A DNA stretch of 64,000 nt. Source: Closterium sp. NIES-65. Taxonomy: Eukaryota > Streptophyta > Zygnematophyceae > Desmidiales > Closteriaceae. The stretch is from positions 186,001 through 250,000 of the forward strand of contig CANXME010002074.1 of assembly GCA_948144175.1 (NCBI GenBank). Direction: 5' to 3'. A program made the translations under genes and the position numbers. Below the pieces are notes generated by a model. That model did no database searches and had not been told where the DNA came from. It worked only from the letters and a program-made list of their open reading frames with translations. Below are positions 6,769-50,704 of this stretch, in pieces. The stretch's first letter is position 1. Every line of letters starts with the position of its first letter.

Positions 6769-7423
6769 GTCCAGGGACCGCATGCTGAAGGTTGATGATG
6801 CACGTCCTAGAAACGCATTAGAAGAGTAGTGAGTCCATTTTGCCGCTTGGAAGTGTTTAGCAAGGTGGTCAATATATCCTGCGTAGAACCGCGTGTTAAG
6901 TTTGTTCAGCTATCTTGCATCACTAACCTTCGAAAGCCCTCCTGCGTTTAACGTCTACGATTATCCTGTCGTCCTCAGGATGGCCTGTCCAGAATAAAGA
7001 AATCGCGGCTCGAACTCATATTTACCCTAACAAGAAGAAGCGTCCATGCAGGCGGATTATTCTCTACCAGCTAAAATCGAGCGTAGGAGCTTGCACCATT
7101 GGAAGCTGGGCCAACATATGGGATGAAGCTACCAACAATGGGAAGAGGAAAGAGGAGGTAGCGAGGGAAAAAAAGCTGGCTGTGTGGTGCTTGAAAGAAG
7201 CTTGGAAGGAATCGTCAGCTGGGTGGGGGAAGGGATGGCTCTGTGTCAGAAGAAATGGCACCTCTGACAACCTCGAGAAGATTTGGCGGCGCTTTCGAGG
7301 CGCGAAGTGGTGGAACATGAAATAGAAACAGTGAAGAAAGATGTTGGCATAACATAATCACGAGCTGTTTTCCTGGAAGTATATACATAGTATGTATTAT
7401 ATCAATTTCCACATATTATATTT
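6768..7423. other. Unassigned DNA between the poly(A) tract and the DIRS element
   Basis: No gene, repeat or RNA could be supported. Reading frames here have low-complexity composition and no splice-site support. Confidence 0.4.
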
Positions 7424-7592
7424 TTTGAAAGTGTACTTTCTAAAATTTCGTTTTGTGAAAGCGAGGACGTGGCCAGCGCAGCAAAGGAAGCGGTGCGACG
7501 CTACTCACCCCTCTTTTCGTCTACAAAAGAGGGACGTGAGGCTATTCGCCTCACCCACGTTCTTCATTTCTAATTGTAGTTCTACTTTCCCG
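7424..7592 (+). repeat. Split direct repeat A1 of the DIRS-like element
   Basis: 169 bp beginning TTTGAAAGTGTACTTTCTAA and ending GTTCTACTTTCCCG. It matches 21351-21519 with about six differences. It contains CTCTTTTCGTCTACAAAAGAG, an imperfect hairpin, and GAGGCTATTCGCCTC, a second hairpin. Confidence 0.85.
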
Positions 7593-7683
7593 TTCTCGTC
7601 CAACCTGACGAAAACTCAATCACTTCCGCGGTTCAAGTCTCCGACGACCCTGCTTACTGACATACTTGAGCACAACCTCGCCA

Positions 7684-9885
7684 ATATGACGCCTGCTACG
7701 ACGACCCAGAATCGAGATGGCGACAAGTCTTCTACCCCGACTAATACTTCCGAGCCCGTTCATTCGCCCAGGAGACCCGACCGCCGTGGAAAGCGTCCTG
7801 CCGACGACAATGCTGGCGAGGGACCGAGCGCGGTGGACGTGTTACTCGGCGGTAACACCCGAGCGACCCCCGAAGAAGCACGAGCGACTGCAAAGCAGAC
7901 GCGCGTGCCCCCTGCTGAAGACCTCGCGGCTGCTGCAGGCCAGGCAGGCTCCACGTCCCAGAAACGTCAGAAAGCAGTAGCTTCGAGCGAAACTGCCCCA
8001 GTCAACACCCTCCCCTCATTGACCGCGCAGCAACTGCAAACTTTGCTGACGATGTTACAACAGAATGCCCCGGTTACAGCAGCAACTTCGTCCGACTATA
8101 TATCAGCTCCTGCAAAAATTGAAAACAACAAATAAGTCGTCTCGCCACCTCGCACCAACAAGACCCCTCGCGTCAACGCGACGGCCCCCGCGCCTTTACC
8201 CGCCCCGGCAAATGCTCCTGTCACCGTTCCTGACGACAGCGACGACTCTGACAACGATGACGGTGAGGCCCCCAACAACGTTGCTCGTCGTCGCATTTTT
8301 GCACCCGCACCCCCTCTCCCACCCCTCAACTCCACACCCGCAGCTACCACGTTCGTGCGCAAAGGCGTGCGCGACTAGGCGGAGGTCTTCTCTGCCATCC
8401 AGGCTCATCTGAAGCACATTGACTTCAAGCTCCAGCACGGAGACATCGAAGGCGTGTCAGTAGAGCTACACTGTGAGATCCTCGATCGATCCTAGGGGGG
8501 GTTACAGACGCGTTTGCATGGGGGGTTATGGGCGCACTGACCCGCTACTGAACCAAGCCCTTTTATCCCAGTGGTCTAGTGATTGTGATTTTGACATGGT
8601 ATCAGAGCGGTCTCGGGTTCGATTCCCGGTGTATGCACATGTAGGCCGTTGCCGCTGTGCTTAGTCCTGGGCCTCCCAGTGTGAGGGGGGTGTCAGTAGA
8701 TCTGCACTGTGGATGCCCGATTGATCCTGGACAGGGTTACATGCGCGTTCGCCTGGGGGGTTATGGGCGCACTGACCCGCTATTTAACAAGCCATTTTAT
8801 CCCAATTGTCTAGTGGTTGGGATTCTGACATGGTATCAGAGCGAAGGTCTCAGGTTCGAATCCTGGTGTATGCACATGTTGGCCGTTGCCATTGTGCTCA
8901 GTCCTGGGCCTCCCAGTGTGGGGGGGTGTTAGTAGAGCTACACTGTGAGATCCCCGATCGATCCTAGGGGGGGTTACAGGCGCGTTTGCCTGGGGGGTTA
9001 TGGGCGCACTGACCCGCTACTGAACCAAGCCCTTTTATCCCAGTGGTCTAGTGACTGGGATTCTGACATGGTATCAGAGCGGTCTCGGGTTCGATTCCCG
9101 GTGTATGCACATGTAGGCCGTTGCCGCTGTGCTTAGTCCTGGGCCTCCCGGTGTGAGGGGGGTGTCACTAGATCTGCACTGTGGATGCCCGATTGATCCT
9201 GGAGAGGGTTACAGGCGCGTTCGCCTGGGGGGTTATGGGCGCATTGACCCGCTACTTAACAAGCCCTTTTATCCCAATGGTCTAGTGGTTGGGATTCTGA
9301 CATGGTATCAGAGCGAAGGTCTCGGGTTCGAATCCCGGTGTATGCACTTCGGGCATCCCAGTGCGGGGGGGGTGTCAGAGGTCCACTGGTGATCCCCGAT
9401 TGATCCTAGGGAAGGGTTACAGAAATATTGGCCTGGGGGGTTGTGGGCGCATTGACTCGCTACTTAACAAGCCCTTTTATCTCAATGGTCTAGTGGTTGG
9501 GATTCTGACAAGGCGCCCTCACCAACGTAGCCGATATCGACACACTCATTAATAAGCGCTTTGAAGTCCTCTTGGTGGCGGACAAAGCCGGTTTTGAAGC
9601 CGCTGATCGTTTCCAGTTGTACCAGTCCAAGAGCGTCCTTACGTCATGCTCCTACAAGCTTGCGGTGGCCGACGTGGCGGCGCTCAAGCGTGCTCGCACT
9701 GGCTACACTCGCGGCGCACGCATGCCTACTCGGGATGGCGATACGGACGGCAAGAGCATGCCACCCACAAGCTGCCACGAGACCCGCTTCAAGGGAGTGT
9801 GCTTTCGCTGCGGCCAGCCCGGCCACATGGCAAACGCTTGCCCTATGGGAGGGCGTGGCGCGCAAGGCCCCTCACACGTGGTGTG
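7684..9885 (+). mobile_element. Gag-like region of the DIRS-like element, split by a TRIM array
   Basis: Left of the TRIM array is a Pro/Ala/Thr-rich, low-complexity protein beginning MTPATTTQNRDGDKSS near 7686, with a basic RRPDRRGKRP patch and a QQLQTLLTMLQQ helix. Right of the array (9511-9885) is a helical segment followed by a single zinc knuckle CFRCGQPGHMANAC near 9800-9840 and a stop near 9885. A nucleocapsid-like knuckle at the end of the first reading frame is typical of Ngaro/DIRS gag proteins. Broken. Confidence 0.65.
8455..9510 (+). mobile_element. Tandem TRIM array: five LTRs alternating with four tiny internal regions
   Basis: The LTRs are 8455-8596, 8691-8830, 8927-9068, 9163-9302 and 9373-9510 (138-142 bp). 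Most begin TGTCAG or TGTTAG and end CTGACA or TTGACA. The four internal regions are only 70-96 bp. Each starts with the primer-binding site TGGTATCAGAGC (initiator-Met-tRNA type) and ends in a G-rich polypurine tract just before the next LTR. The whole array is flanked by the 5-bp duplication AGGCG (8450-8454 and 9511-9515). LTRs 1 and 3 resemble each other, as do 2 and 4, so the array has a dimeric higher-order repeat. There is no coding capacity. Each unit has an A box TGGTCTAGTGG-like word before the LTR end and a perfect B box GGTTCGANTCC after the primer site. Confidence 0.9.
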
Positions 9886-9895
9886 AGGAGGTACA

Positions 9896-10242
9896 TGTCA
9901 GAGGTCCACTGGTGATCCCCGATTGATCCTAGGGAAAGGTTACAGGCACGTTGGCCTGGGGGGTTATGGGCGCACTTACCCGCTACACAAACAAGCCCTT
10001 TTATCCCAATGGTCTAGTGGTTGGGATTCTGACATGGTATCAGAGCGAAGGTCTCGGGTTCGAATCCTAGTGTCTGCACCTCGGGCATTCCAGTGCGGGG
10101 GGGTGTCAGAGGTCCACTGGTGATCTCCGATTGATCCTAGGGAAGGGTTACAGGCTTGTTGGCCTGGGGGGTTATGGGCGCACTTACCCGCTACACAAAC
10201 AAACCCTTTTATCCCCATGGTCTAGTGGTTGGGATTCTGACA
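9896..10242 (+). mobile_element. Single complete TRIM (miniature LTR element), 347 bp
   Basis: The 5' LTR is 9896-10034 and the 3' LTR 10104-10242, each 139 bp with about six differences (roughly 4%). The internal region of 69 bp begins with TGGTATCAGAGC (10035-10046) and ends with a CGGGGGGG-type polypurine tract. The target-site duplication GTACA lies at 9891-9895 and 10243-10247. It belongs to the same family as the 8455-9510 array and is closest to that array's last LTR. It has no coding region, so it must move with enzymes supplied by another element. Confidence 0.9.
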
Positions 10243-10305
10243 GTACATGGGGCAGCGCTCCTTGCCACTATGCCGAGGGGCGTAGGTGGATGCACCGATG
10301 GTGCT

Positions 10306-10497
10306 TGGCTCGTAGTTAGCCACGTGTGTTTATTGGCTCGTAGTTAGCCACGTATTTTATTGGCTCGTAGTTAGCCATGTGTGTTTATTGGCTCGTAGTT
10401 AGCCACGTGTGTTTACTGGCTCGTAGTTAGCCATATGTGTTTATTGGCTTGTAGTTAGCCATGGGTGTGTGGGCTAGTAGTTAGCCATGTGTGTGCT
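10306..10497 (+). repeat. Minisatellite of a TGGCTCGTAGTTAGCCA hairpin unit, seven copies
   Basis: Seven copies, spaced about 26-30 bp apart, of TGGCTCGTAGTTAGCCA followed by a GTGTTTAT-like spacer. Each unit's TGGCT and AGCCA arms pair around a CGTAGTT loop. It lies in the non-coding spacer of the DIRS-like element between the gag knuckle and the reverse transcriptase. Confidence 0.85.
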
Positions 10498-10593
10498 TCA
10501 GAGCCTTACACATCCTTGCCGTAGGGGCAGGATGGAGGTAGGCATAGGCCATGTACCCGGGTGTTGAGTTTGATTATTGAAAGCTTTACCAAA

Positions 10594-10954
<361 letters not shown>

Positions 10955-29549: not shown

Positions 29550-30865
29550 TGTTGGAAATATATTTGTGTGTTATTTATCTTGCAGTGCACTGTTCAAAGT
29601 GCAGAAGCGAAGCCCTCAATATCGGGGGTGATGACTCAAGTATCGAACTGCAGGGGCGCAACCGCGTACAGTGGTTGCGACCCGCGTGGCAGCCGAAGGG
29701 TCGAATTGAGCAAGAGGCAGCGTCTACAGTACGCGAAACCACCCTGGAGGCGCGGCAGAATACCGCGCCCTTGCCGAAGCTGAAAGGTCTCGCCAGTAAC
29801 TGGGCAACTGAAACGTTACAGCGCAACTGTAATACAGTTGCGCCTTGGTAACTGCCTCCCTGCTATGTTTCCTATATAACTCAATGTACTGCCATGCTAT
29901 CATTACACAATTCTCAAGCTTGTGTCCGGCCTACCCTCGGCCGCCGCTTTGGCACCAAGTTACAAGCCAGGAGAGCTACCTCTGAGTGACCATAGCCCCG
30001 CCGCTGGGACGTCGTTATTTCCTAGAGTATTTCCGCTACTCTAGCGACCTCCTAATTTCAACATGGTATCAGAGCAAGCGTTCAAACACTTGGACCTGTG
30101 GGAGCAGCTTCATTCAGTTTGGCTCACCACCTTTATCATCACCAGGAGCATCTCCTGGAGCAGGTCAGAACCTGCCACTACCCACGGAGAATTTCGTGGA
30201 GGAAATCTTCAACGCGCCGTCGCATAATTTTGGGCGACTTGGCAAGACGCATTTCAAGGCGTACCGGTGAAGTCCCTGACGAGGACTTCAGAATTTCAAC
30301 ATGGAGAATTTCATCTCTCTTGGATTCTACACTTCTAACAGTGGAGGGGAGTGTTGGAAATATATTTGTGTGTTATTTATCTTGCAGTGCACTGTTCAAA
30401 GTGCAGAAGCGAAGCCCTCAATATCGGGGGTGATGACTCAAGTATCGAACTGCAGGGGCGCAACCGCGTACAGTGGTTGCGACCCGCGTGGCAGCCGAAG
30501 GGTCGAATTGAGCAAGAGGCAGCGTCTACAGTACGCGAAACCACCCTGGAGGCGCGGCAGAATACCGCGCCCTTGCCGAAGCTGAAAGGTCTCGCCAGTA
30601 ACTGGGCAACTGAAACGTTACAGCGCAACTGTAATACAGTTGCGCCTTGGTAACTGCCTCCCTGCTATGTTTCCTATATAACTCAATGTACTGCCATGCT
30701 ATCATTACACAATTCTCAAGCTTGTGTCCGGCCTACCCTCGGCCGCCGCTTTGGCACCAAGTTACAAGCCAGGAGAGCTACCTCTGAGTGACCATAGCCC
30801 CGCCGCTGGGACGTCGTTATTTCCTAGAGTATTTCCGCTACTCTAGCGACCTCCTAATTTCAACA
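29550..30865 (+). mobile_element. TRIM-like element with two identical 514-bp LTRs
   Basis: LTRs at 29550-30063 and 30352-30865 begin TGTTGGAAATATA, end ATTTCAACA, and appear identical over 514 bp. The 288-bp internal region starts with the primer site TGGTATCAGAGC (30064-30075) and ends in GTGGAGGGGAG before the 3' LTR. The target duplication AGTGA lies at 29545-29549 and 30866-30870. The LTR holds TATATAACTC-like and Cys/Arg-rich-looking frames, but no gag or pol. The LTRs are long for a TRIM, so it is a small non-autonomous LTR element. Zero LTR differences mean a very recent insertion. Confidence 0.92.
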
Positions 30866-33557: not shown

Positions 33558-36500
33558 TGTCAGAATGAGGAATGGATGTTGCATTGATGTTGGTTGGGGT
33601 ACATATGACAAACCCTAACTTCTGTACCCCCTAAGACAAACCTCACTACAGGCTACAACATTTGACACACCCCCATAGCCTAAGTGAGGGGTGTCTAACA
33701 AAAACAAAAAACAAAAGTACGGTCACAAGACCAGTCCAAAAGAAACAAAGCTCAGGGTGGATCACAACGTCACCACACACTCTGAGCACAAGCAACAGTG
33801 GCCACAATGCCAGTCCAAGAGATCACAAGTATATATAGTAAGTGTACAGACGAAGCAGGCAATAAACTCAAGTCTACGCATGACTAGAACCTGTGTCAAC
33901 AAGGCCTAACTGCACACAACACCTCTGGTGGTCACAAGGCGGAAGCGCCTTGGTGAAGATGTCTGCAGTGTTGGCCTCGGACTCCACAAACTCGAAGCGA
34001 GCCTGTCCACGCCTCTGCAACTCTCGCAGAAGAAAGTACCTGACGTGAATGTGCTTCACCCTGCTCTCCAGTCGCGGCTCACGACAGAGGAGGATCGACG
34101 CCTTGTTGTCAGTAAACAAGGTCGGTGCAGAGCTCGGCCGCTCACCAAGGTCGGCGAGCAAGAAGGTCAACCACCGTAACTCCTCTGCCGCCATGGCACC
34201 AGCGTAAATCTCAGCCTCAGCTGTAGAGGTCGAGACAGAAGAGGAGCGCGTGGAACGCCAGGAAACAGCTCCAGAACCCAGACTGAAACAGTACCCCTGA
34301 GTAGACCTGTGAGTCTCAGCGTCGTCAGCGTAAGAGGAGTCACAGTGACCAGTGAGTACGACAGACTGCTGCCCTCCAAGAACTAGCCCCACGCCTGATG
34401 TAGTCGCTAGGTACTTCGCCACCCTCACAGCTGCCGTCCAGTGAACAGGACGGTGTCTCCCTGGCGCAACAAAGCGCGCAAGGATGCTGAGAGGGAAGGT
34501 GAGGTCCGGGCGAGTACAAGTCATCAGGTACATGAGGCAACCCACAAGCTCTGCGTACGGACCACTAGGCTCAAACGGCTCGTCAGGAAAGGGACCAGTG
34601 AGTCTGTGGTCAACAGCGAGAGGTGTGCGCTGTACGGTGGAGTGCTGAAGCCCGAACCGCTGAAGGACCTGCTGCACCATGTGTGACTGTGAGAGTGTAA
34701 TGGTGCGAGCGGCTCTGTCCCTGGTGATCTGCAGGCCAAGGTAGTGGCGCAGCTCACCAAGATCAGTGCACGTGTGTCTCTTCTGCAGTTCAGACTTCAC
34801 GTCTGCCAAAGCAACCCTGTCCGGAGTGGCGAAAACGAGGTCGTCGACGTAAACCAGAACAAAGAACGGTGTGGAGCCACGACGAACAAACAGCGACGGG
34901 TCGGCAGAAGACGGCTGGAACCCAAGGTCAGAGAGGGTAGAGCGCAGAGTGTCGTGCCACTCACGAGGGGCCTGGCGAAGACCGTAAACAGGTCGCCTCA
35001 GCCTCCACTGGGTCCAAGGAGGGAAGGTGCCAGTGAAGGCCGAGGGACGACGCAACCAGACCTCCTCGTGTAGGCTGCCCTGAAGGAAAGCAGTGGAGAA
35101 GTCGAGAGAGTGTAACTCGTAGTCTCTCTGTGCTGCTACGTGTAGTAACACCCGAAGAGTGGTCATCTTCGGGGTAGGTGCGAAGGTCTGAAAGAAGTCA
35201 ACTCCCTCGCGCTGACTCAAACCTCTAGCCACGTAGCGCGCCTTGAAGACCGGGGGAGATCCCGGTGGCCGCTTCACCCTGTAGATCCACATGCCGTCGA
35301 CTACGTTCGCCCCAGGGGGGGGAACCTCATCGACGTAGGTGCCTGTGGATCTGTAGGAGGCCATCTCTGCGTCCATGGCAGCTCTCCCCTGAGAGGCCCA
35401 AGGCCCTGACACTGCCTCAGCGTAAGTGCGAGGAGTCGGAATGTCAAGGGCGTCGGGGTCACCCTCAGGGGCGAGGAGCATGGCACAGAGATGAGGGGAA
35501 GCGGCCGCCAGGAACTCTAGCTCAAACTGCCTGTCCTCTAGGGCGTCACAGCCAAGGGCAGACACACCCCCGACGGCCAGAGGACTGGTAGGAGGAGCAG
35601 CCACAAGCGTGGTGGCGTAGTCAAGGCGGCGGGTAGAGGCAAAGTCAGTAACTGCGGCAGTAAGAGCGGACACAGAGGACACAGAGGCACGAGGGTGAGT
35701 AACAAGAGAGGCGAGAACACGAGAGAGAACAGGACGGTACGTGCGGTAGTAGTCAGTGACAGAAGTAGGGAGCGACACAGTGAGGGCCGACTCAGGAGGA
35801 GACGGAAGCACAGACTGAGACGGACGAGGTGGACTAGAAAGAAGGAAGGCAGTACGAAGGTCAGTGAAGGGAACAGGAGACGAGGGACGAGCACGAGGGG
35901 AGCGACGAGTAGCCCAAGAACGAGACGGAGGAGGAGAGGACAAAGGCGGAGAACTGGGGAAAACAGCGGGGGAGGAGTCAGGAGGAGGAAACGTGGGACC
36001 GTAGACAGGAGGAGAGGCGGAGGAGGGAGGAGAAGGGGAGGGGAGACCAAGGGTCCGAAGACCCGAGACAGGAGGAGGAAGTGGCTGCTGCTGCTGCTGC
36101 TGCGACTACTGCTGCTGCGGACGCGGCTGCTGCTGGGACTGCTGCTCCTACGGGTCCAGCTGCTGCTGCTGCTGCTGCTGCTGCTCCTGCGGCTCCAGCT
36201 GCTGCTGCTGCTCCTCCAACCGCTGTAACTCCCTCTCCTCTCTCTCCAACGCCAGCTGCTCGTCACGGGCACGGCGAACACGAGCCTGGTGCCTAGTCGG
36301 GTAGGGGTGGGGGGGTGGAGTAGTGTCCGAAGCAGCGGCAGCTCCAGAGTCCACCTCAGAAGAACTAGGCGCACCACCCCCAGAGGCAGCACTAACACCA
36401 GCTCCAGAACCCGGCTCACCTGAAACCGAAGGAGGCGCACCCTCACCCCCAGACGCAGCACCCCCAGTGTCCGCGCGGCCAGCACCAGCTCCCGGACGAC

Positions 36501-37937
36501 AAGAGTCCTCTGCACCCACCGGGTCAGCTCCAACTCCAGAACCAGAAACTCCAGCTCCAACCCCTGCTCCAACTCCGGCACCCCCAGAACCAGAAACTCC
36601 AGTGCCAACTCCAGCTCCAACTCCAGCTCCAACTCCAGCACCCCCAGAACCAGGAACCGGTACAGGAACAGGCGCCGCACCAACCTCTCGAGAGCTAGCA
36701 CCAGCGGCACGCTGCGAGGAGGACTGTGGGGAGGGAGGCTGTACCGGAGGGGTAGCCTGGGACACACCTGACGGGGCTGGACCAGGGGGGGGAGGCTGTA
36801 CCGGGGGAGCAGGAGGGGGAACGGCAGTCAGGAAGAGGGGGGGGAGGAGGAACCGGGAGACCTCGACTGGGGTACCTGACGTAGTACGGAGTGGACTCCT
36901 CGAAGCGGACGTCACGAGAGTCAAAGAACCGGTGAGAGGGAGGGTGGTAAAAGGTGAAGTCAGAGGAGTCCTCAGGGAAACCAAGGAAGACACAGGGGAC
37001 GGCACGAGGCAAGAGCTTGTCCGCGGAGGTGTCGCGGACAAGAGCCAAGCACCCCCAGACACGAAACCGCGACGCAACACCAGGGGACCCTGTCCAAAGA
37101 CTGGTCGGTGAAACCTCTGGTCGAGAGACACGCGGCCAGAGGTTCAGCTGGTGCGCGGCGTACCTGACCGCGTAGGGCCACAGAAAATGGGGGGCACAGG
37201 CGTGAGTCAGGGAGGTGCGGGCGATCTCCATGACCAGGCCTATGCGGCGCTCAGCAACCCCATTCTGCTGTGGGGACTCTGGAAGCGTCCAGGACTGACG
37301 AATGCCCTGCTCGCGACAGAATCCAGCGAGAATGCCGGAGCGAAACTCACCCCCACGGTCGGAGTGGAGACAGCTGACACGACGACCACGAGTGTCCTCA
37401 GTGGTGAGCAACCACCTGATCAGCGTAGAAGTCACCTCAGACTTCTTCGCCAGAGGGAACACTGTGGTGTAGCGGGAGAAGTCGTCAACTACCACCAGAA
37501 AGTAACGCCCACGCTCAGGGCCTAGACGAGGGGCTGGGCCCCAGACGTCCAAGTGAAGCGTCTCAAAAGGCTCGGTGGCCGGACGAAGGGAGGAGGAGTG
37601 AGGGGTGGCGCGCAGCCTACCCTCGACGCAGGGACGACACGGCGGCGCAGGCGAAGGCGGCAGCGACGGCAAGACACGTGGGAGGCCTAGGACAAGACGC
37701 TGACTAGACATAGCGCGCAGACGTGGAAGGGACGGGTGCCCCATCCGGTGGTGCCAAAGAACGGTGGGGTGGGCAAGCGATCGGCAGGAGCACGACGCAG
37801 CGACTGGAACAGACGTAGGAACCTGACACGACACAGACACCTGGGGGGACGTAGCAACCTGGTGAGACGCGGGGACCCGAACGGGGGGGGGAACCGGGGG
37901 CAGTGGCAGTAGGGGGGGCTGCTGGTGCGGCCGCTGG

Positions 37938-37973
<36 letters not shown>

Positions 37974-40758
37974 GGCTGCTGCTGCTGCTGTGGCTGCTGC
38001 TGCGGCGCACGCGGGCCAGTGTGAAGAGTGTAGAGACCCGAGCCCGGCTCAGCAGTAAAGGTAGCAAGAGGCTGGTAAGAGTCTCCGTCAACACACACCG
38101 CAGTCTCTCCAGAAGGCTCAAACCACACACCCACGTGCTGACTCACGAGGGGTCGCACGCCCACCAAGTTCCGGGAGAACGAGGGGACGTGAAACCCAGT
38201 GAGAGACCCGGAGGGAGCAGCAGGACACGGTAAAGTGGTAGTGTGACGTGCAGTGGCTGGTCCCGTAGTGGGATCAGCCAACGCTACAGAAACAGGCGCA
38301 GGAAGTGGTGTAAGTGTCGTGCTGTCCCGAAAGAAGCAGTGGGAGGCTCCAGAGTCCAGTGTGAACGACAGCGAAGCGTCCTCTGAGGTAGTCGCTGGTC
38401 TAGAGTCTACACAAGTACCTACACTAGCAACAGGCAACTGAGCAAGTCTAGCACCTAAGCTAACAACACCAGAGTAAACAGAGTCAGAAACACTAGAGTC
38501 AACAACAGCATACATAGCATGAGGAGCACTAATCAGATCAACTAACTGCTCAGCAGACATGCCCCACAGAGCGGAGCCGTAGCGCTGAACCAGAGGAAGC
38601 CAGTCAGGAGCAGGACCGCCAACCCCGTAGGTCAACCGGACCGTGTCAGTGAGCTGAGCAAAGCACTGACCAGGGGGTGAAAGCGGCCACAAGGGTGGCC
38701 CCGACGAGGACCTGTCTGAACCTGGTAGGGGCAGGGAGGGTAAGCAGCACCGCGCTGGGGCTGACGCAGCCCCGACCCCGGAGCGAGCTGCTGACGCTGC
38801 TGCTGCTGAGGCTGCTGGGAGGAAAGGAGCTGTTGCTGCTGCTGAAGGTGCTGCTGACGCTGAGCCTGGTACCACGCCGCTGCTCCACCTAGCGGGGCCG
38901 GCAGTACAGGAGGCGACTGACGAGCTCGAGGGTCGCCGCCACCAGCAGGTGCAGTGGAGTCGCCAGCCACTGCACGAGGGGTCTCTCCAGACGCTGCACT
39001 CCCACCACCGCCAGTCGCAACAGCACCCCCACTACCTCCGCTACCTCCGCCTCCACCTCCACCGGAACCACCTTTCTTGCCCCCCCTGCCGCGGGACCGC
39101 GACGCAGTCGTAACAGCAGCCGCAGTCGCGTCAGTAGCGGCAGTGGCAAGAGAGGCAGTGAAGGTGGGTAACTGCGGGACTGTGCACCCGTGGAAGAGTG
39201 GGGGGGACACAGTACCAGAGGCGGCAGCTACCGAACGAAGGTTGCTCTCGACGTCCTTGAGTGCAGACTCAAGGACCTCGATAGTCAGCTCACTAGGGTG
39301 CTTCAGCAGAAGCGCGTCACGAACGGAGGCAAGGCGGTCAGGGAGGCTAGTGGCGATGAAATAGACAGTAATCGCCATGGGGGGAGGAAGCAGTGCAAGC
39401 TGTGCCTCAGTGCAAGCAGCGCGGTAACTAGCGTCGAGCGAGCGGAGGTGAGCGATCAAGTCAGCAGAGCGCTCAAACGAGGCAAGATCAGGAAACAGGA
39501 ACGGGAGGAAAAGACGGCCGAGAGAGACAGTAGCGGGAGTAGAGTAGCGGGCCTTAATCGCAGTGAGGTACGCAGCAGCGGTGCAAACCTGAGTAAAGTG
39601 GACCTCCTCGGACTCAGGGAGGAGGCTGCTGAGTGCGATGCAGGCCGCAGCGTCACGCGACGTCCAAGCCGTCCGGTCAGCGCGCTGACGGGCAAAGCGA
39701 GCCGTAGCAGCGTCGTCAGGAGCAGGGCCTAAAGCGGTAGGCTCGGGGGGCTCGGGGAGGTCACCAGTAGCGTGTGACCAGAGGGTCTCGCCCCCCTGGA
39801 CCTGACTCTCTAACAGACGACGAGCGCGAAGAAGCCAGACCGAAAAGTCAAGGGGTCTACCATCAGCGTCGAAACGAAGAACTCGCGGAGTCGCCATAGT
39901 GAGAACCAACGCGAACGAACAGGCGAGTAACAACCGGGGGGGAAGAGGACTCAGTCGCAGCGGAAGAGCGGGCTAGGGCGACGGGCCAAAACGTAGGGTA
40001 GGGCAACGGGCCAGGGCCTAGGGAGGGCGACGGGCCAGGGCGTAGGGAGGGCGACGGGCCAGGGCCTAGGGAGGGCGACGGGCTAGGGCCTAGGGAGGGC
40101 GACGCGACGGGGGAAAGGGCGGGAGCGACGCGACGGGGCAGGGCGACGCGACGGGACAGGGCGACGCGACGGGGCAGGGCGGCGCGACGGAGCAGGGCGA
40201 CGGGACAGGGCAGGGCGACGCGACGGGGTAGGGCGACGCGACGAGACAGGGCGACGGGACGGGACGGGACGGGACAGGGCGACGCGACGGGACGGGATTG
40301 GGCGACGCGACGGGACAGGGCGACGGGACGGGACAGGGCGACGCGACGGGACAGGGCGACGGGACAAGGCAGGGCGACGCGACGGGACAGGGGGGGAACA
40401 GGCGGGCGCGACGCGACGGGGGGAACAGGCGCGACGCGACGGGGGGGAACGGGCGCGACGCGACGGGGGGAACGGGCGCGACGCGACGGGGGGAACGGGC
40501 GCGACGCGACGGGGGAGATGATGCTAGGCTCGGTACTAGGCGCGGTAACAACTAAACTGGTACGAACGAGAGGTAGGATCAGGCTCGGGAGGTACGAACG
40601 GAGAACGGTGGAACGGGATCCCACAGGATCCTAACCTAGCTGATACCATGTCAGAATGAGGAATGGATGTTGCATTGATGTTGGTTGGGGTACATATGAC
40701 AAACCCTAACTTCTGTACCCCCTAAGACAAACCTCACTACAGGCTACAACATTTGACA
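33558..40758 (-). mobile_element. Young Ty1/copia element (minus) near the 5' end of the hAT gene
   Basis: 110-bp LTRs at 33558-33667 and 40649-40758 are identical. The target duplication GTTAG lies at 33553-33557 and 40759-40763. Read on the minus strand: a primer site beginning TGGTATCAGC beside the LTR at about 40648, a repetitive leader (about 40530-39950), gag beginning MATPRVLRFDADGRP near 39896, a Gly-rich and Gln-rich gag tail, a protease FTLDSGAS near 38370, integrase (HHRMGH, LDVWGP, HSDRGGEF), Gln-rich CAG-repeat linkers, reverse transcriptase (YVDDLVF) and RNase H ending near 33874. The polypurine tract reads CTATGGGGGTG. Broken about three or four times although its LTRs are identical. 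It is closely related to the element at 41434-48702. Confidence 0.95.
39950..40530 (-). repeat. GC-rich minisatellite leader of the 33.6-40.8 kb copia element
   Basis: About 580 bp of degenerate short repeats built from GACGGGACAGGGCGACGCGA-like words (written on the plus strand), placed between primer site and gag. It creates Arg/Pro/Ser-rich reading frames in several frames that are not genes. Confidence 0.85.
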
Positions 40759-41433: not shown

Positions 41434-44400
41434 TGTCAAAATGAGGAATGATGATGCCATTGATGTTGGTTGGGGTACATATAACAAACCCTAACTTCTG
41501 TACCCCCTAAGACAAACCTCACTACAGGCTACAACATTTGACACACCCCCATAGCCTAAGTGAGGGGTGTCTAGCAAAATAAAAAAAGAGTACGGTCACA
41601 AGACCAGTCCAAAAGAAAACAAAGCTCAGGGTGGATCACAACGTCACCACATTCTCTGAGCACAAGCAACAGTGGCCACAAGGCCAGTCCAAGAGATCAC
41701 AAGTATATATAGCAAGAGTACAGACGAAGCAGACAATAAACTCAAGCCTACACATGACTAGAACCTGTGTCAACAAGGCCTAACTGCACACAACACCTCT
41801 GGTGGTCACGAGGCGGAAGCGCCTTGGTGAAGATGTCTGCAGTGTTGGCCTCGGACTCCACAAACTCGAAGCGAGCCTGTCCACGCCTCTGCAACTCTCG
41901 CAGAAGAAAGTACCTGACGTGAATGTGCTTCACCCTGCTCTCCAGTCGCGGCTCACGACAGAGGAGGATCGACGCCTTGTTGTCAGTAAACAAGGTCGGT
42001 GCAGAGCTCGGCCGCTCACCAAGGTCGGCGAGCAAGAAGGTCAACCACCGTAACTCCTCTGCCGCCATGGCACCAGCGTAAATCTCAGCCTCAGCTGTAG
42101 AGGTCGAGACAGAAGAGGAGCGCGTGGAACGCCAGGAAACAGCTCCAGAACCCAGACTGAAACAGTACCCCTGAGTAGACCTGTGAGTCTCAGCGTCGTC
42201 AGCGTAAGAGGAGTCACAGTGACCAGTGAGTACGACAGACTGCTGCCCTCCAAGAACTAGCCCCACGCCTGATGTAGTCGCTAGGTACTTCGCCACCCTC
42301 ACAGCTGCCGTCCAGTGAACAGGACGGTGTCTCCCTGGCGCAACAAAGCGCGCAAGGATGCTGAGAGGGAAGGTGAGGTCCGGGCGAGTACAAGTCATCA
42401 GGTACATGAGGCAACCCACAAGCTCTGCGTACGGACCACTAGGCTCAAACGGCTCGTCAGGAAAGGGACCAGTGAGTCTGTGGTCAACAGCGAGAGGTGT
42501 GCGCTGTACGGTGGAGTGCTGAAGCCCGAACCGCTGAAGGACCTGCTGCACCATGTGTGACTGTGAGAGTGTAATGGTGCGAGCGGCTCTGTCCCTGGTG
42601 ATCTGCAGGCCAAGGTAGTGGCGCAGCTCACCAAGATCAGTGCACGTGTGTCTCTTCTGCAGTTCAGACTTCACGTCTGCCAAAGCAACCCTGTCCGGAG
42701 TGGCGAAAACGAGGTCGTCGACGTAAACCAGAACAAAGAACGGTGTGGAGCCACGACGAACAAACAGCGACGGGTCGGCAGAAGACGGCTGGAACCCAAG
42801 GTCAGAGAGGGTAGAGCGCAGAGTGTCGTGCCACTCACGAGGGGCCTGGCGAAGACCGTAAACAGGTCGCCTCAGCCTCCACTGGGTCCAAGGAGGGAAG
42901 GTGCCAGTGAAGGCCGAGGGACGACGCAACCAGACCTCCTCGTGTAGGCTGCCCTGAAGGAAAGCAGTGGAGAAGTCGAGAGAGTGTAACTCGTAGTCTC
43001 TCTGTGCTGCTACGTGTAGTAACACCCGAAGAGTGGTCATCTTCGGGGTAGGTGCGAAGGTCTGAAAGAAGTCAACTCCCTCGCGCTGACTCAAACCTCT
43101 AGCCACGTAGCGCGCCTTGAAGACCGGGGGAGATCCCGGTGGCCGCTTCACCCTGTAGATCCACATGCCGTCGACTACGTTCGCCCCAGGGGGGGGAACC
43201 TCATCGACGTAGGTGCCTGTGGATCTGTAGGAGGCCATCTCTGCGTCCATGGCAGCTCTCCACTGAGAGGCCCAAGGCCCTGACACTGCCTCAGCGTAAG
43301 TGCGAGGAGTCGGAATGTCAAGGGCGTCGGGGTCACCCTCAGGGGCGAGGAGCATGGCACAGAGATGAGGGGAAGCGGCCGCCAGGAACTCTAGCTCAAA
43401 CTGCCTGTCCTCTAGGGCGTCACAGCCAAGGGCAGACACACCCTCGACGGCCAGAGGACTGGTAGGAGGAGCAGCCACAAGCGTGGTGGCGTAGTCAAGG
43501 CGGCCGGTAGAGGCAAAGTCAGTAACTGCGGCAGTAAAAGCGGTCACAGAGGACACAGAGGCACGAGGGTGAGTAACAAGAGAGGCGAGAACACGAGAGA
43601 GAACAGGACGGTACGTGCGGTAGTAGTCAGTGACAGGCGTAGGGAGCGACACAGTGAGGGCCGACTCAGGAGGAGACGGAAGCACAGACTGAGACGGACG
43701 AGGTGGACTAGAAAGAAGGAAGGCAGTACGAAGGTCAGTGAAGGGAACAGGAGACGAGGGACGAGCACGAGGGGAGCGACGAGTAGCCCAAGAACGAGAC
43801 GGAGGAGGAGAGGACAAAGGCGGAGAACTGGGGAAAACAGCGGGGGAGGAGTCAGGAGGAGGAAACGTGGGACCGTAGACAGGAGGAGAGGCGGAGGAGG
43901 GAGGAGAAGGGGAGGGGAGACCAAGGGTCCGAAGACCCGAGACAGGAGGAGGAAGTGGCTGCTGCTGCTGCTGCTGCTGCTGCGACTGCTGTTGCTGCGG
44001 AAGCGGCTGCTGCTGGGACTGCTGCTCCTGCGGGTCCAGCTGCTGCTGCTGCTGCTGCTGCTGCTCCTGCGGCTCCAGCTGCTGCTGCTGCTCCTCCAGC
44101 CGCTGTAACTCCCTCTCCTCTCTCTCCAACGCCAGCTGCTCGTCACGGGCACGGCGAACACGAGCCTGGTGCCTAGTCGGGTAGGGGTGGGGGGGCGGAG
44201 TAGTGTCCGAAGCAGCGGTAGCTCCAGAGTCCACCCCCGAAGAACCAGGCGCACCACCCCCAGAGGCAGCACTAACACCAGCTCCAGACCCAGGCTCGCC
44301 AGAACCCCAAGGAGGCGCACTCTCACCCCCAGTGTCCGCGCGACCAGCACCAGCTCCCGGACGACAAGAGTCCTCTGCACCCACCGGGTCAGCTCCAACT

Positions 44401-47400
44401 CCAGAACCAGAAACTCCAGCTCCAACTCCAGCTCCAACCCCAGCACCCCCAGAACCAGAAACTCCAGTGCCAACTCCAGCTCCAACTCCAGCTCCAACTC
44501 CAGCTCCAACTCCACCACCCCCAGAACCAGAAACCGGTACAGGAACAGGCGCAGCACCAACCTCTCGAGAGCTAGCACCTGCGGCACGCTGCGAGGAGGA
44601 CTGTGGGGAGGGAGGCTGTACCGGAGAGGCTACCGAAGGAGGAGGGGTAGCCTGGGACACACCCGACGGGGCTGGACCAGGGGGGGGAGGCTGTACCGGG
44701 GGAACAGGAGGGGGAGCGGCAGTCAAGACGAGGGGGGGAGGAGGAACCTGGAGACCTCGACTGGGGTACCTGACGTAGTACGGAGTGGACTCCTCGAAAC
44801 GGACGTCACGGGAGTCAAAGAACCGGTGAGAGGGAGGGTGGTAAAAGGTGAAGTCAGAGGAGTCCTCAGGGAAACCAAGGAAGACACAGGGGACGGCACG
44901 AGGCGAGAGCTTGTCCGCGGAGGTGTCGCGGACAAGAGCCAAGCACCCCCAGACACGAAACCGCGACGCAACACCAGGGGACCCTGTCCAAAGACTGGTC
45001 GGTGAAACCTCTGGTCGAGAGACACGTGGCCAGAGGTTCAGCTGGTGCGCGGCGTACCTGACCGCGTAGGGCCACAGAAAATGGGGGGCACAGGCGTGAG
45101 TCAGGGAGGTGCGGGCGATCTCCATGACCAGGCCTATGCGGCGCTCAGCAACCCCATTCTGCTGTGGGGACTCTGGAAGCGTCCAGGACTGACGAATGCC
45201 CTGCTCGCGACAGAATCCAGCGAGAATGCCGGAGCGAAACTCACCCCCACGGTCGGAGTGGAGGCAGCTGACACGACGACCACGAGTGTCCTCAGTGGTG
45301 AGCAACCACCTGATCAGCGTAGAAGTCACCTCAGACTTCTTCGCCAGAGGGAACACTGTGGTGTAGCGGGAGAAGTCGTCAACGACCACCAGAAAGTAGC
45401 GCTCACGCTCAGGGCCTAGACGAGGGGTGGGGCCCCAGACGTCCAAGTGAAGCGTCTCAAAAGGCTCGGTGGCCGGACAAAGGGAGGAGGAGTGAGGGGC
45501 GGCGCGCAGCCGACCCTCGACGCAGGGACCACACGGCGGCGCAAGCGAAGGCGGCAGCGACGGCAAGACACGTGGGAGGCCTAGGACAAGACGCTGACTA
45601 GACATAGCGCGCAGACGAGGAAGGGACGGGTGCCCCATCCGGTGGTGCCACAGAACGGTGGGGTGGGCAAGCGACCGGCAGGAGCACGACGCAGCGACTG
45701 GAGCAGACGTAGGAACCTGACACGACACAGACACCTGGGGGGACGAAGCAACCTGGTGAGACGCGGGGACCCGAACGGGGGGGGGAACCGGGGGCAGTGG
45801 CAGTAGGGGCGGCTGCTGGTGCGACCGCTGGTGCAGCTGCTGCTGCTGCTGCTGCTGCGGCTGCGGCTGCTGCTGCTGCTGCGGCTGCTGCTGCGGTGCA
45901 CGCGGGCCAGTGTGAAGAGTGTAGAGACCTGAGCCCGGCTCAGCAGTAAAGGTAGCAAGAGGCTGGTAAGAGTCTCCGTCAACACACACCGCAGTCTCTC
46001 CAGAAGGCTCAAACCACACACCCACGTGCTGACTCACGAGGGGTCGCACGCCCACCAAGTTCCGGGAGAACGAGGGGACGTGAAACCCAGTGAGAGACCC
46101 GGAGGGAGCAGCAGGACAAGGTAAAGTGGTAGTGTGACGTGCAGTGACTGGTCGCGTAGTGGGATCAGCCAAAGCCACAGAAACAGGCGCAGGAAGTGGT
46201 GTAAGTGTCGTGCTGTCCCGGAAGAAGCAGTGTGAGGCTCCAGAGTCCAGCGTGAACGACAGCGAAGCGTCCTCTGAGGTAGTCGCTGGTCTAGAGTCTA
46301 CACAAGAACCTACACTAGCAACAGGCAACTGAGCAAGACTAGCACCTAAGCTAACAACACCAGAGTAAACAGAGTCAGAAACACTAGAGTCAACAACAGC
46401 ATACATAGCATGAGGAGCACCAATCAGATCAACTAACTACTCAGCAGACATGCCCCACAGAGCGGAGCCGTAGCGCTGAACCAGAGGAAGCCAGTCAAGA
46501 GCAGGACCGCCAACCCCATAGGCCAACCGGACCGTGTCAGTGAGCTGAGCAAAGCACTGACCAGGGGGGTGAAAGCGGCCACAAGGGTGGCCCCGACGAG
46601 GACCTGTCAGAACCTGATAGGTGCAGGGAGGGTAAGAAGCACCGCGCTGGGGCTGACGCAGCCCCGACCCCGGAGCCAGCTGCTGACGCTGCTGCTGCTG
46701 AGGCTGGCGGGAGGAAAGGGGCTGCTGCTGCTGCTGAAGGTGCTGCTGACGCTGAGCCTGGTACCACGCCGCTGCTCCACCTAGCGGGGTCGGCAGTACA
46801 GGAGGCGACTGACGAGCTCGGGGGTCGCCGCCACCAGCAGGCGCAGTGGAGTCACCAGCCGCTGCACGAGGGGTCTCTCCAGACGCTGCACTCCCACCAC
46901 CGCCACTCGCAACAGCACCCCCACTACCTCCGCTACCTCCACCTCCACCTCCACCAGAACTACCTTTCTTGCCCCCCTTGCCGCGGGACCGCGACGCAGT
47001 CGTAACAGCAGCCGCAGTCGCGTCAGTAGCGGTAGTGGCGAGAGAGGCAGTGAAGGTGGGTAACTGCGGGACTGTGCACCCGTGGAAGAGTGGGGGGGAC
47101 ACAGTACCAGAGGCGGCAGCTACCGAGCGAAGGTTGCTCTCGACGTCCTTGAGTGCAGACTCAAGGACCTCGATAGTCAGCTCACTAGGGTGCTTCAGCA
47201 GAAGCGCGTCACGAACGGAGGCTAGGCGGTCATGGAGGCTAGTGGTGATGAAATAGACAGTAATCGCCATGGGGGGAGGAAGCAGTGCAAGCTGTGCCTC
47301 AGTGCAAGCAGCGCGGTAACTAGCGTCGAGCGAGCGGAGGTGAGCGATCAAGTCAGCAGAGCGTTCAAACGAGGCGAGATCAGGAAACAGGAACGGGAGG

Positions 47401-48702
47401 AAAAGACGGCCAAGAGAGACAGTAGCGGGAGTAGAGTAGCGGGCCTTAATCGCAGTGAGGTACGCAGCAGCGGTGCGAACCTGAGTAAAGTGGACCTCCT
47501 CTGACTCAGGGAGGAGGTTGCTGAGTGCGATGCAGGCCGCAGCGTCACGCGACGTCCAAGCCGTCCGGTCAGCGCGCTGACGGGCAAAGCGAGCCGTAGC
47601 AGCGTCGTCAGGGGCAGAGCCTAAAGCTGTAGGCTCGGGGGGCTCGGGGAGGTCACCAGTAGCGTGTGACCAGAGGGTCTCGCCCCCCTGGACCTGACTC
47701 TCTAACAGACGGCGAGCGCGAAGAAGCCAGACGGAAAAGTCAAGTGGTCTACCGTCAGCGTCGAAACGAAGAACTCGCGGAGTCGCCATAGTGAGAACTA
47801 ACGCGAACGAACAGGCGAGTAACAATTGGGGAGAAGAGGCAAATTAGGGTTCAGGTGGGAAGGGGACTCAGTCGCAGCGGAAGAGCGGGCTAGGGCGACG
47901 GGCCAGGGCGTAGGGTAGGGCGACGGGCTAGGGCGTAGGGTAGGGCGACGGGCCAGGGCGTAGGGTAGGGCGACGGGCCAGGGCGTAGGGTAGGGCGACG
48001 GGCCAGGGCATAGGGTAGGGCGACGGGCCAGGGCGTAGGGTAGGGCAACGGGCCAGGGCGTAGGGTAGGGCGACGGGCCAGGGCGTAGGGTAGGGCGACG
48101 GGCCAGGGCGTAGGGACGGGACAGGGCGACGCGACGGGGCAGGGCGGCGCGATGGGGCAGGGTGACGGGACGGGGCAGGGCGACGCGACGGGGCAGGGCG
48201 ACGCGGCAGGGCAGGGTGACGGGACGGGGCAGGGCAACGCGACGGGGCAGGGCGACGGTACGGGGCAGGGCGACGCGACGGGACAGGGCGACGGGACGGG
48301 GGGGAAAGGGCGGGCACGACGTGATGGGGGGAACGGGCGCGACGCGACGGGGGGAAAGAGCGCTAGGCGACGGGGGGAAAGGGCGCGACGCGACGGGGGG
48401 GGGGGGGGGGGGGGAAAGGGCGCTAGGCGACGGGGAGAAAGGGCGCTAAGCGACGGGGGAGAGGGCGCTAGGCTCGGTACTAGGCGCGGTAACAACGGAA
48501 CCGGTACGAACGAGAGGTAGGATCAGGCTCGGGAGGGACGAACGGAGAACGGAGGAACGGGATCCCACAGGATCCTAACCTAGCTGATACCATGTCAAAA
48601 TGAGGAATGATGATGCCATTGATATTGGTTGGGGTACATATAACAAACCCTAACTTCTGTACCCCCTAAGACAAACCTCACTACAGGCTACAACATTTGA
48701 CA
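41434..48702 (-). mobile_element. Young Ty1/copia element (minus) inside the hAT gene
   Basis: 110-bp LTRs at 41434-41543 and 48593-48702 differ at one base. The target duplication CACGC lies at 41429-41433 and 48703-48707. On the minus strand: a primer site beside 48592, a 25-bp minisatellite leader, gag from about 47793 (MATPRVLRFDADGRP) to about 46440, then pol with protease, integrase, Gln-rich linkers, reverse transcriptase and RNase H to about 41748. Gag ends in C-x13-C-x3-H-x4-C. It looks nearly whole, with about one break. It is a sister copy of the 33558-40758 element with a slightly different LTR, so two subfamilies were active recently. Confidence 0.95.
47891..48118 (-). repeat. 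25-bp minisatellite, about nine copies, in the copia leader
   Basis: Plus-strand unit AGGGCGACGGGCCAGGGCG plus TAGGGT, about nine near-identical copies, followed to about 48480 by GACGCGACGGGGCAGGGC-type repeats and a short G run. It sits between primer site and gag, in the same place as the unrelated leader repeats of the other copia elements. Confidence 0.9.
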
Positions 48703-49234: not shown

Positions 49235-50704
49235 TGTGAAAATAGGTAGTTAGAAGTAGGAGCCATAGTTAGGTCTTTCCTAGCTAGGCAAGAATAGTTA
49301 AGGCAAAAGAGAGGGATGCACTAGCAAGCAATAGGATACATATAGGAAACCCTAAAGGGTTGTACTCGCTATAGAGTACCCCACTGCAGGCTAGAGAACA
49401 AAGATAACATTTTGACACACCCCCATAGCCAAAGTGGGGTGTAATCAGCAGAGCAAGCAAAACAGAACAAGCTCAGGGTGGATCACAATGTCACCACACA
49501 TTCTGAGCACAAGTTCAAGAAGAAATAGTTTAAAGTTCACTATTATGAGCAAAGCTAGAGGCTATCGCATAGGGCAAGTAAGGAGGAGGAGGCGAGACTG
49601 TAAGAGGAGAGGAGATAGGAGGCAACGACTGAAGCAGCAGACACACGGGCTACAGGAGGCACACTGGCACAGCGGCTACCGGAACAGCGCTCCGGACTAC
49701 TGGAGTAACTGGCCCCGCGGCTAAAAGTAGCGGCAGACGAGCAACGGACCCACGGGCGACTGGCGCAGGTGGCTACTACTGGGCTACCGGAGCGACTCCC
49801 CGGACTACAGGTGCTGCTGGCGACACGACGACAACCTCCGATCAACCTCCCCAAACAGTCCCACCCCCCTTGACACACACCCGCTGCTTCACCCCTAGCT
49901 CCACTCCCCCTTCACCCCCCTTAGTACCACTCCGACGGCTCCAACAGGTCCACCCCCCCTCAGCGGCAGCTGCAGCACAGGGAGACGGAGGAGGAGGAGG
50001 AGCAGGGAATAGCACACAGTGGCTTCACCCCCATACCCCTCACCCCCAAACCCTAATTCAGGAGAACGGGCTGTAGGAGGGGTGGGGCTCCAGTAGAAGC
50101 ACGGGGGACAGCAGGGAGGGCAGGGGCAGCGAGGAAAGGGCCGCCCACGGGCCTGGCACAGCCGCCCGAACCGTGCGCAGGCGGCCCGAGCCGCGCGCGG
50201 GCCTGGCGCAGCCCGTACGGGCCGCGGACGGGTCTGGCGCGGCTCGTACGTGCCGCGCGCAGGCTGAACGGGCCGCGCGCAGGCCACGACGGGCGACGGG
50301 GGGCGACGCGGAGGTCCCCGTCGCCCGTCGCAGCGCCTCCCGAGAGCAGCGCGCGGCGTGACGGGGCAGTAACCCGCCGCGGGTCTCGGGGCGCACGGCG
50401 GGAAGAGAACCGCCGCGCGCCTCGGGGCGCACGGCGGGCAGAAAACCGCCGCGCGCCTAGCAGTTGCAATGGAAGGAGTGTGGTGGGGCCCACAGGCCCG
50501 GAGCTTACTGCTCTGATACCATGTGAAAATTGGTAGTTAGAAGTAGGAGCCATAGCTAGGTCTTTCCTAGCTAGGCAAGAATAGTTTAGGCAAAAGAGAG
50601 GGATGCACTAGCAAGCAACAGGATACATATCGGAAACCCTAAGGGGTTGTACTCGCTATAGAGTACCCCATTGCAGGCTAGAGAACAAAGATAACATTCT
50701 GACA
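49235..50704 (-). mobile_element. Short non-autonomous LTR element of copia type (minus)
   Basis: 183-bp LTRs at 49235-49417 and 50522-50704 (eight differences, about 4%). The target duplication TCTGG lies at 49230-49234 and 50705-50709. On the minus strand a perfect primer site TGGTATCAGAGC abuts the 5' LTR and the polypurine tract CTATGGGGGTG abuts the 3' LTR. The 1.1-kb interior keeps a GC-rich leader and the 3' block TGTGATCCACCCTGAGCTT shared with the full-length copia elements, but has no gag or pol. It is probably a deletion derivative mobilised in trans. Confidence 0.9.

Follow-up and report, generated by a model that had tools for sequence, protein, structure and literature searches.

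A stretch of 64,000 nucleotides from Closterium sp. NIES-65 (contig CANXME010002074.1, positions 186,001 to 250,000 of the forward strand; hereafter the window, to which all positions refer) carries a terminal-repeat retrotransposon in miniature (TRIM) of 347 bp and, upstream of it, a tandem array of related units. Where the long terminal repeat (LTR) meets the primer-binding site (PBS), each of the five units has an A box and a B box of the kind found in tRNA genes, the former within the LTR and the latter beyond its edge. On the strength of sequence comparison, we consider it rather probable that the 347-bp element, which is likely moved by Copia proteins, holds at this junction the boxes of a probably tRNA-derived sequence, and that it is transcribed by RNA polymerase III (Pol III) as predicted here.

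A miniature LTR element and its tandem array

The two LTRs of the single TRIM agree at 133 of 139 positions (95.7%). Like other TRIMs, the 347-bp element is shorter than 1000 bp and has two LTRs, a PBS, a presumed polypurine tract (PPT) and a target-site duplication (TSD); its PBS is of what we take to be the initiator-Met type. Six-frame translation gives frames broken by stop codons and one frame of 78 codons that lies partly outside the element. A short interspersed element (SINE), which has no LTRs and is copied by target-primed reverse transcription, would not have the LTRs, PBS and 5-bp TSDs present here. The features of the locus are collected in Table 1.

The internal regions of the array measure 94, 96, 94 and 70 bp. 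Its outer LTRs share one TSD despite being different from each other (116 of 143 aligned columns alike), and the unit types alternate; the array was probably rearranged after insertion, because a single insertion should give identical outer LTRs. It is hosted by a gag-like gene (7353-9895), and a continuous frame is regained when the two sides of the array are put together. Upstream of the insertion two stops interrupt this frame, and its final stop is directly followed by the single TRIM. The gag-like label comes from one zinc-knuckle word (CFRCGQPGHMANAC), and 7353-8135 has no Pfam match. Directly past the TRIM, at 10297-10494, there are seven tandem copies, spaced at 26-28 bp, of a unit like TTGGCTCGTAGTTAGCCACGTGTGTTTA.

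Table 1. Positions of the TRIM, the array, their predicted signals and the Copia elements in the window.
Feature	Position	Strand	Remarks
Complete TRIM, LTR-internal-LTR, 347 bp	9896..10242	+	LTR pair and 5-bp TSD
5' LTR of single TRIM, 139 bp	9896..10034	+	TGTCAGA...TTCTGACA
3' LTR of single TRIM, 139 bp	10104..10242	+	
TSD of single TRIM, GTACA	9891..9895 and 10243-10247	+	
CAA motif, predicted Pol III start	9992..9994	+	in 7/7 LTRs
TTTT	9999..10002	+	sole T4 run of the single-TRIM unit; its 3' LTR copy (10207-10210) is the predicted terminator
Predicted hairpin ATCCCAAT/GTTGGGAT, 8 bp	10003..10027	+	loop holds most of the A box
A box TGGTCTAGTGG of single TRIM	10010..10020	+	within LTR
PBS TGGTATCAGAGC of single TRIM	10035..10046	+	
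B box GGTTCGAATCC of single TRIM	10057..10067	+	internal region, outside LTR
Seven-G run, presumed PPT	10097..10103	+	before 3' LTR; presumed from position
Tandem array, five LTRs and four internal regions	8455..9510	+	subtypes alternating
TSD of array, AGGCG	8450..8454 and 9511-9515	+	
Array unit 1, A box to B box	8572..8626	+	A box (8572) with one change; B box at 8616; 44 bp apart
Array unit 2, A box to B box	8806..8863	+	A box (8806) with one change; B box at 8853; 47 bp apart
Array unit 3, A box to B box	9044..9098	+	A box (9044) with one change; B box at 9088; 44 bp apart
Array unit 4, A box to B box	9278..9335	+	A box at 9278; B box at 9325; 47 bp apart
Two related Copia elements, 110-bp LTRs	33558-40758 and 41434-48702	minus	TSDs CTAAC and GCGTG

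The A box and the B box at the junction

An initial annotation of this DNA had placed an A box at 10010 and a perfect B box at 10057, and had described an anticodon-arm-like stem (TCTGA/TCAGA around a 7-base loop) formed by the LTR end and the primer site. Both boxes stand where they were placed and with the words given for them: the B box GGTTCGANTCC is exact in all five junctions, always on the plus strand, and has no further copy on either strand of the 64 kb. The stem, too, is exact at four of the five junctions, with one U.G pair in the fifth. Each B box begins 19 or 22 bp downstream of the first base of a TRIM primer site. Four of the seven LTRs match the A-box consensus TRGYNNARNGG exactly, and the remaining three are one base off; at the five LTR/primer-site junctions, two A boxes are exact and three carry one change. 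The distance from A box to B box is 47 bp in the single TRIM and ranges from 44 to 47 bp over the five junctions.

In 40 first-order Markov simulations of the window, scored on one strand, an exact B box occurred 0.10 times on average, and an exact B box with an A box (at most one mismatch) at a fitting distance 0.00 times; the five copies in the window are related and were counted as one event. Neither box accompanies the remaining four TGGTATCAG primer sites of the window, at 30064 on the plus strand and at 50521, 48592 and 40648 on the minus strand, where the best likenesses have 2-3 mismatches to the A box and 2-4 to the B box.

Probable origin of the boxes from a tRNA gene

Where did the boxes come from? 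The pair GGTCTAGTGGTTAGGAT-(18-32)-GGTTCGANTCC was run as a query through IMG/VR and GTDB genome contigs and gave 4 and 14 matches, respectively, all 18 of which sit in tRNA genes called by ARAGORN (Gly, Val, Glu or Asp). The left word of this query is one base apart from the TRIM word (GGTTGGGAT) in four of the seven LTRs, including both of the single TRIM, and two or three bases off in the other three. From word start to word start, the distance is 42-43 bp in the tRNA matches, 43 bp in array units 1 and 3 and 46 bp in the other junctions. The exact TRIM junction had no match in IMG/VR or in GTDB genomes.

Local alignment of three of the five junctions with the tRNAs of the matched loci gave scores of 52, 57 and 55; the null maxima were 36, 42 and 34, and none of the 100 shuffles per junction came up to the observed score. 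The set comprises 232 records, with genes present twice. Its selection depended in part on the same words, a bias towards high scores; the shuffles were scored on this set as well but were not subject to that selection. The best partner of array unit 3 is tRNA-Gly(GCC), which matches over CAGTGGTCTAGTG and then over CGGGTTCGATTCCCGG and ATGCA, and unit 4 and the single TRIM align best with tRNAs for Val and Gly. A comparison with eight tRNAs pointed in the same direction. In addition, the T arm of unit 3 agrees in 15 of 15 letters with the T arm of a tmRNA model in Rfam (9.7 bits, below the gathering threshold of 47). Taken at the level of sequence, a tRNA-gene origin of both boxes is well supported, and we infer that the junction derives from a tRNA gene, whose former anticodon arm would now be the LTR end and primer site.

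The candidate explanation that the B box is an extended complement of the primer tRNA was rejected, because GGTTCGA(A/T)TCC in the element is a sense word, that of elongator tRNAs, and stands further from the primer site. The complement of the T arm of plant initiator tRNA-Met presumably reads GGTTTCGATCC.

As a present-day tRNA fold the junction was also rejected. A check with tRNA models, as the initial annotation had proposed, recognised no tRNA there: three permissive Rfam scans up to E 10 listed only T-arm pieces of tmRNA models (a second scan gave a similar T-arm match at 4.6 bits, and one scan omitted three weaker matches of the tmRNA clan), and ARAGORN called none at its default or 90% setting. 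The 411 looser ARAGORN matches in the 64 kb are at background level, and the acceptor halves of the junction, inspected by eye, do not pair.

Predicted transcription and replication cycle

Two further motifs have fixed places in all seven LTRs, CAA 18 bp and TTTT 11 bp upstream of the A box; TATAA, TATAT and AATAAA occur in none of the seven. In Arabidopsis tRNA genes, a CAA in the first 10 upstream bases is said to act as the start, and the terminators are T runs of at least four (PMC11700998). The weight of the TTTT lies in its fixed place, since a T4 run alone is not unusual.

An outline of the proposed process is as follows. An LTR element would have taken up what had been a tRNA gene, or else the tRNA-derived head of a SINE. 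The anticodon arm of this piece would have become the LTR terminus and primer site, so that the A box came to lie on the LTR side of the join and the B box on the internal side. TFIIIC would then bind both boxes at the 5' copy only. Pol III would start at the CAA near 9993, transcribe the primer site and the internal region, continue into the 3' LTR and stop at its TTTT near 10210, giving an RNA of 218 nt (9993 to 10210). The ends of this RNA, AAGCCCUUUU at the 5' side and AAACCCUUUU at the 3' side (one base different in this copy), could provide a 10-nt repeat to be used in strand transfer. Priming of reverse transcription would fall to initiator tRNA-Met, with reverse transcriptase and integrase supplied by Copia proteins. 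The B box is outside the LTR, and therefore solo LTRs and 3' LTRs would be without a promoter. Whether a tRNA gene has in this manner been rebuilt into the replication junction of an LTR element, with its anticodon arm as LTR end and PBS, its promoter split and the same CAA...TTTT block providing the start on the left and the stop on the right, we regard as close to an even call and slightly short of it; such an element would form a split-promoter class of TRIMp3.

That the TRIM is moved in trans by Copia is likely from the features shared with the two Copia elements of the window, namely LTR ends TGTCA...TGACA, a PBS beginning with TGGTATCAG, a 5-bp TSD and a G-rich tract before the 3' LTR. 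The Copia elements differ in being long, in having integrase and reverse transcriptase domains and in having neither box. With the TRIM as query, the body of the Copia LTRs in the window showed no similarity; the match was confined to 18 bases at the end of the LTR and the primer site. A 154-bp repeat considered as the Copia LTR was overstated, the LTRs being 110 bp long. Among the best 120 of 7261 protein matches of the neighbouring Copia reverse transcriptase, 117 are from Closterium (NIES-53, NIES-54 or Yama58-4).

Conservation among Closterium copies

The TRIM is a multi-copy family. Conservation was scored at the protein level within 143 predicted proteins that bear the element (24 + 119), all of them named Closterium, using sliding five-residue windows anchored on both sides. 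Identity over all windows ranges from 0.833 to 0.979. Two B-box windows are on top, LGFES with 0.979 (n=28) and GLGFE with 0.975 (n=24), and other windows reach 0.96-0.976. Better conservation of the boxes than of their neighbours, on which the initial annotation had staked its reading, was thus not found for the A box and is marginal for the B box. This comparison is low in power because the copies are young and synonymous changes are invisible in protein. Among 35 copies that span the junction, 31 have codons compatible with the A box, 25 have the B-box peptide GFES and 23 have both; those failing the match include single-residue changes and fusions to other sequence.

Several of the Closterium predicted proteins P0122-P0145 begin or splice at the TRIM primer site. 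Here TGGTATCAG followed by AGC is apparently read as a splice acceptor, and the element seems to contaminate gene models.

Weighing the readings

Several observations weigh against Pol III transcription from tRNA-type boxes. The A-box windows are unexceptional (PNGLV 0.955, n=93; NGLVV 0.918, n=88; GLVVG 0.915, n=40), a window outside the boxes, GCQRS, reaches 0.976 (n=107), and the B-box window GFESQ has just 0.931 (n=78). Three of the seven A boxes are imperfect, units 1 and 3 ending in GA instead of GG and unit 2 beginning with TTG. The source isotype comes out as Gly for unit 3 but as Val or Gly for unit 4 and the single TRIM. The CAA of the TRIM lies at what we take to be about -11 to -9 in tRNA numbering, on the margin of its usual position. 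Just 36-45% of surveyed plant tRNA genes carry CAA among their first 10 upstream bases (PMC11700998). The TTTT of the 5' copy lies 7-10 nt past the predicted start and might halt Pol III early, a T4 run is ordinary for the composition of the unit (37.8% of simulations have one), and in array unit 1 another TTTT occurs at 8589. Finally, the predicted hairpin around the A box offers an alternative reason for conservation of this region.

The strongest rival holds that the boxes are a relic of a captured tRNA gene or SINE piece, that Pol II transcribes the element from an unrecognised LTR promoter, and that the boxes persist as the copies are young. It agrees with the A-box codons being no better kept than their neighbours, with most windows being alike at 0.9 or above, too young for visible constraint, and with the imperfect A boxes. 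However, none of the three words TATAA, TATAT and AATAAA is found in the LTRs, the B box is exact in all five units although the subtypes differ directly beside it, and the box spacing is held at 44-47 bp. The T stem also has a paired change, G-C in units 1, 3 and 4 and A-T in unit 2, while in the single TRIM this pair is G.U and the next pair is lost. We judge the relic explanation unlikely, though it is the alternative that deserves the most attention.

Another possibility is that the feature kept is an RNA structure, in which the 8-bp hairpin abuts the 5-bp hairpin that the LTR end makes with the primer site. It might serve in loading the primer or in packaging by Copia proteins, and the A-box likeness would then be secondary. 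In the two helices, 97.5% of cells are paired (seven LTRs, five with the second helix), compared with 25.9-53.1% when the helices are slid. Two paired positions covary in 94 protein-level copies; once 4 other rows are left out, the combinations are N-V 74, S-T 8, S-V 3 and N-T 5, with a Fisher p of 2.3e-6 for these 90. Yet these positions are only 12 bp apart, so that linkage alone suffices; the pairing is reached by 141 of 500 shuffles and the covariation score by 124 of 500. The folding energies do not stand out (z between -0.41 and 1.39 for the five junctions, -0.51 for the 218-nt RNA), and the B box and the match to tRNA genes are left unexplained. We regard a purely structural role as quite improbable.

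The weakest rival, raised in the initial annotation as imitation of a tRNA for priming, has the junction RNA act as its own primer or bind tRNA-handling proteins; it can point to the anticodon-arm-like and T-arm-like stems, but besides the tRNA searches and unpaired acceptor halves described above it faces the recurrence of four of the five pairs of the anticodon-like stem in a Copia element, again as LTR end facing the primer site (the Copia with its PBS at 40648 has ATTCTGACATGGTATCAG, as in the TRIM stem, and the one with its PBS at 48592 has ATTTTGACATGGTATCAG), and because the stem is largely shared in this way, mimicry was rejected as its explanation and we give the proposal hardly any credence.

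Predicted transcription by Pol III, as the initial annotation suggested, is kept as the best reading, together with the well-supported origin of the boxes from a tRNA gene.

Comparison with known elements

TRIMs with small-RNA promoters are known as TRIMp3, of which Helenus is the tRNA type, according to the main text of Kojima (2024, PMC10886601). The Closterium element resembles Helenus in being a TRIM with tRNA-derived boxes A and B, a PBS and a PPT, in its 5-bp TSD (as in plants and fungi), in its likely Copia-type partner (as in fungi), in tandem arrays (for one family) and in that most Helenus families are not predicted to encode a working tRNA (PMC10886601). It differs in that Helenus by definition has the tRNA-derived sequence in its LTRs (PMC10886601), whereas only the A-box half is in the LTR here, the B box lying outside it in five of five junctions. 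The only plant named with Helenus in that text is Selaginella moellendorffii, and the word Closterium is absent from the main text of the paper (PMC10886601).

Cassandra likewise belongs to the TRIMs and has a promoter and a terminator for Pol III, the counterparts of which are predicted in Closterium (PMC7215508, PMC10886601). It has the same PBS letters TGGTATCAGAGC (PMC7215508), a very short RNA terminal repeat, 18 bp in Cassandra (PMC10886601), and tandem arrays of LTR and internal domain (PMC7215508, PMC10886601). Its promoter, however, is that of 5S rRNA and lies within the LTR (PMC7215508, PMC10886601), whereas the predicted promoter of the Closterium element is of the tRNA type and astride the LTR edge; no 5S was among the three Rfam matches to E 10 in 8000-10700. 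Ajax is a further precedent beside Helenus and Cassandra (PMC10886601). With tRNA-derived SINEs (SINE2; PMC10886601) the element shares a head of tRNA origin with A and B boxes, shortness and an apparent lack of coding capacity. Two LTRs, a PBS, a G-rich tract and a TSD of 5 bp set it apart from them, and it would be expected to move in the manner of LTR elements.

No description of the split layout was found in the literature on LTR elements with Pol III boxes, algal TRIM arrays, TRIMp3/Helenus and Closterium retrotransposons, which was covered mostly as titles and abstracts, most subscription papers and all supplements lying outside that coverage. The general kind of element is known, and the split box layout appears to be new.

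Other observations in and beyond the window

A second short LTR element at roughly 29550-30651 has direct repeats that are 100% identical over at least 300 bp and lie 802 bp apart; it has a TGGTATCAG primer site at 30064 with TATATA upstream and neither Pol III box. Elsewhere, a contig labelled as a Maritimibacter metagenome-assembled genome (L014) packs 45 tRNA genes into 8 kb; the anticodons of several are of a kind typical for eukaryotes, and the contig looks mislabelled or foreign.

Implications

If the proposed reading is true, an LTR element can hold a Pol III promoter that lies partly beyond its LTR, solo LTRs would be silent, and one word would serve as both start and stop. It would extend the range of TRIMs of the tRNA type to a charophyte, an alga related to land plants. 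It would also suggest a route of origin in which a primer site evolves inside a tRNA-like promoter, and would offer a small, testable case of a Pol III RNA feeding Copia replication.

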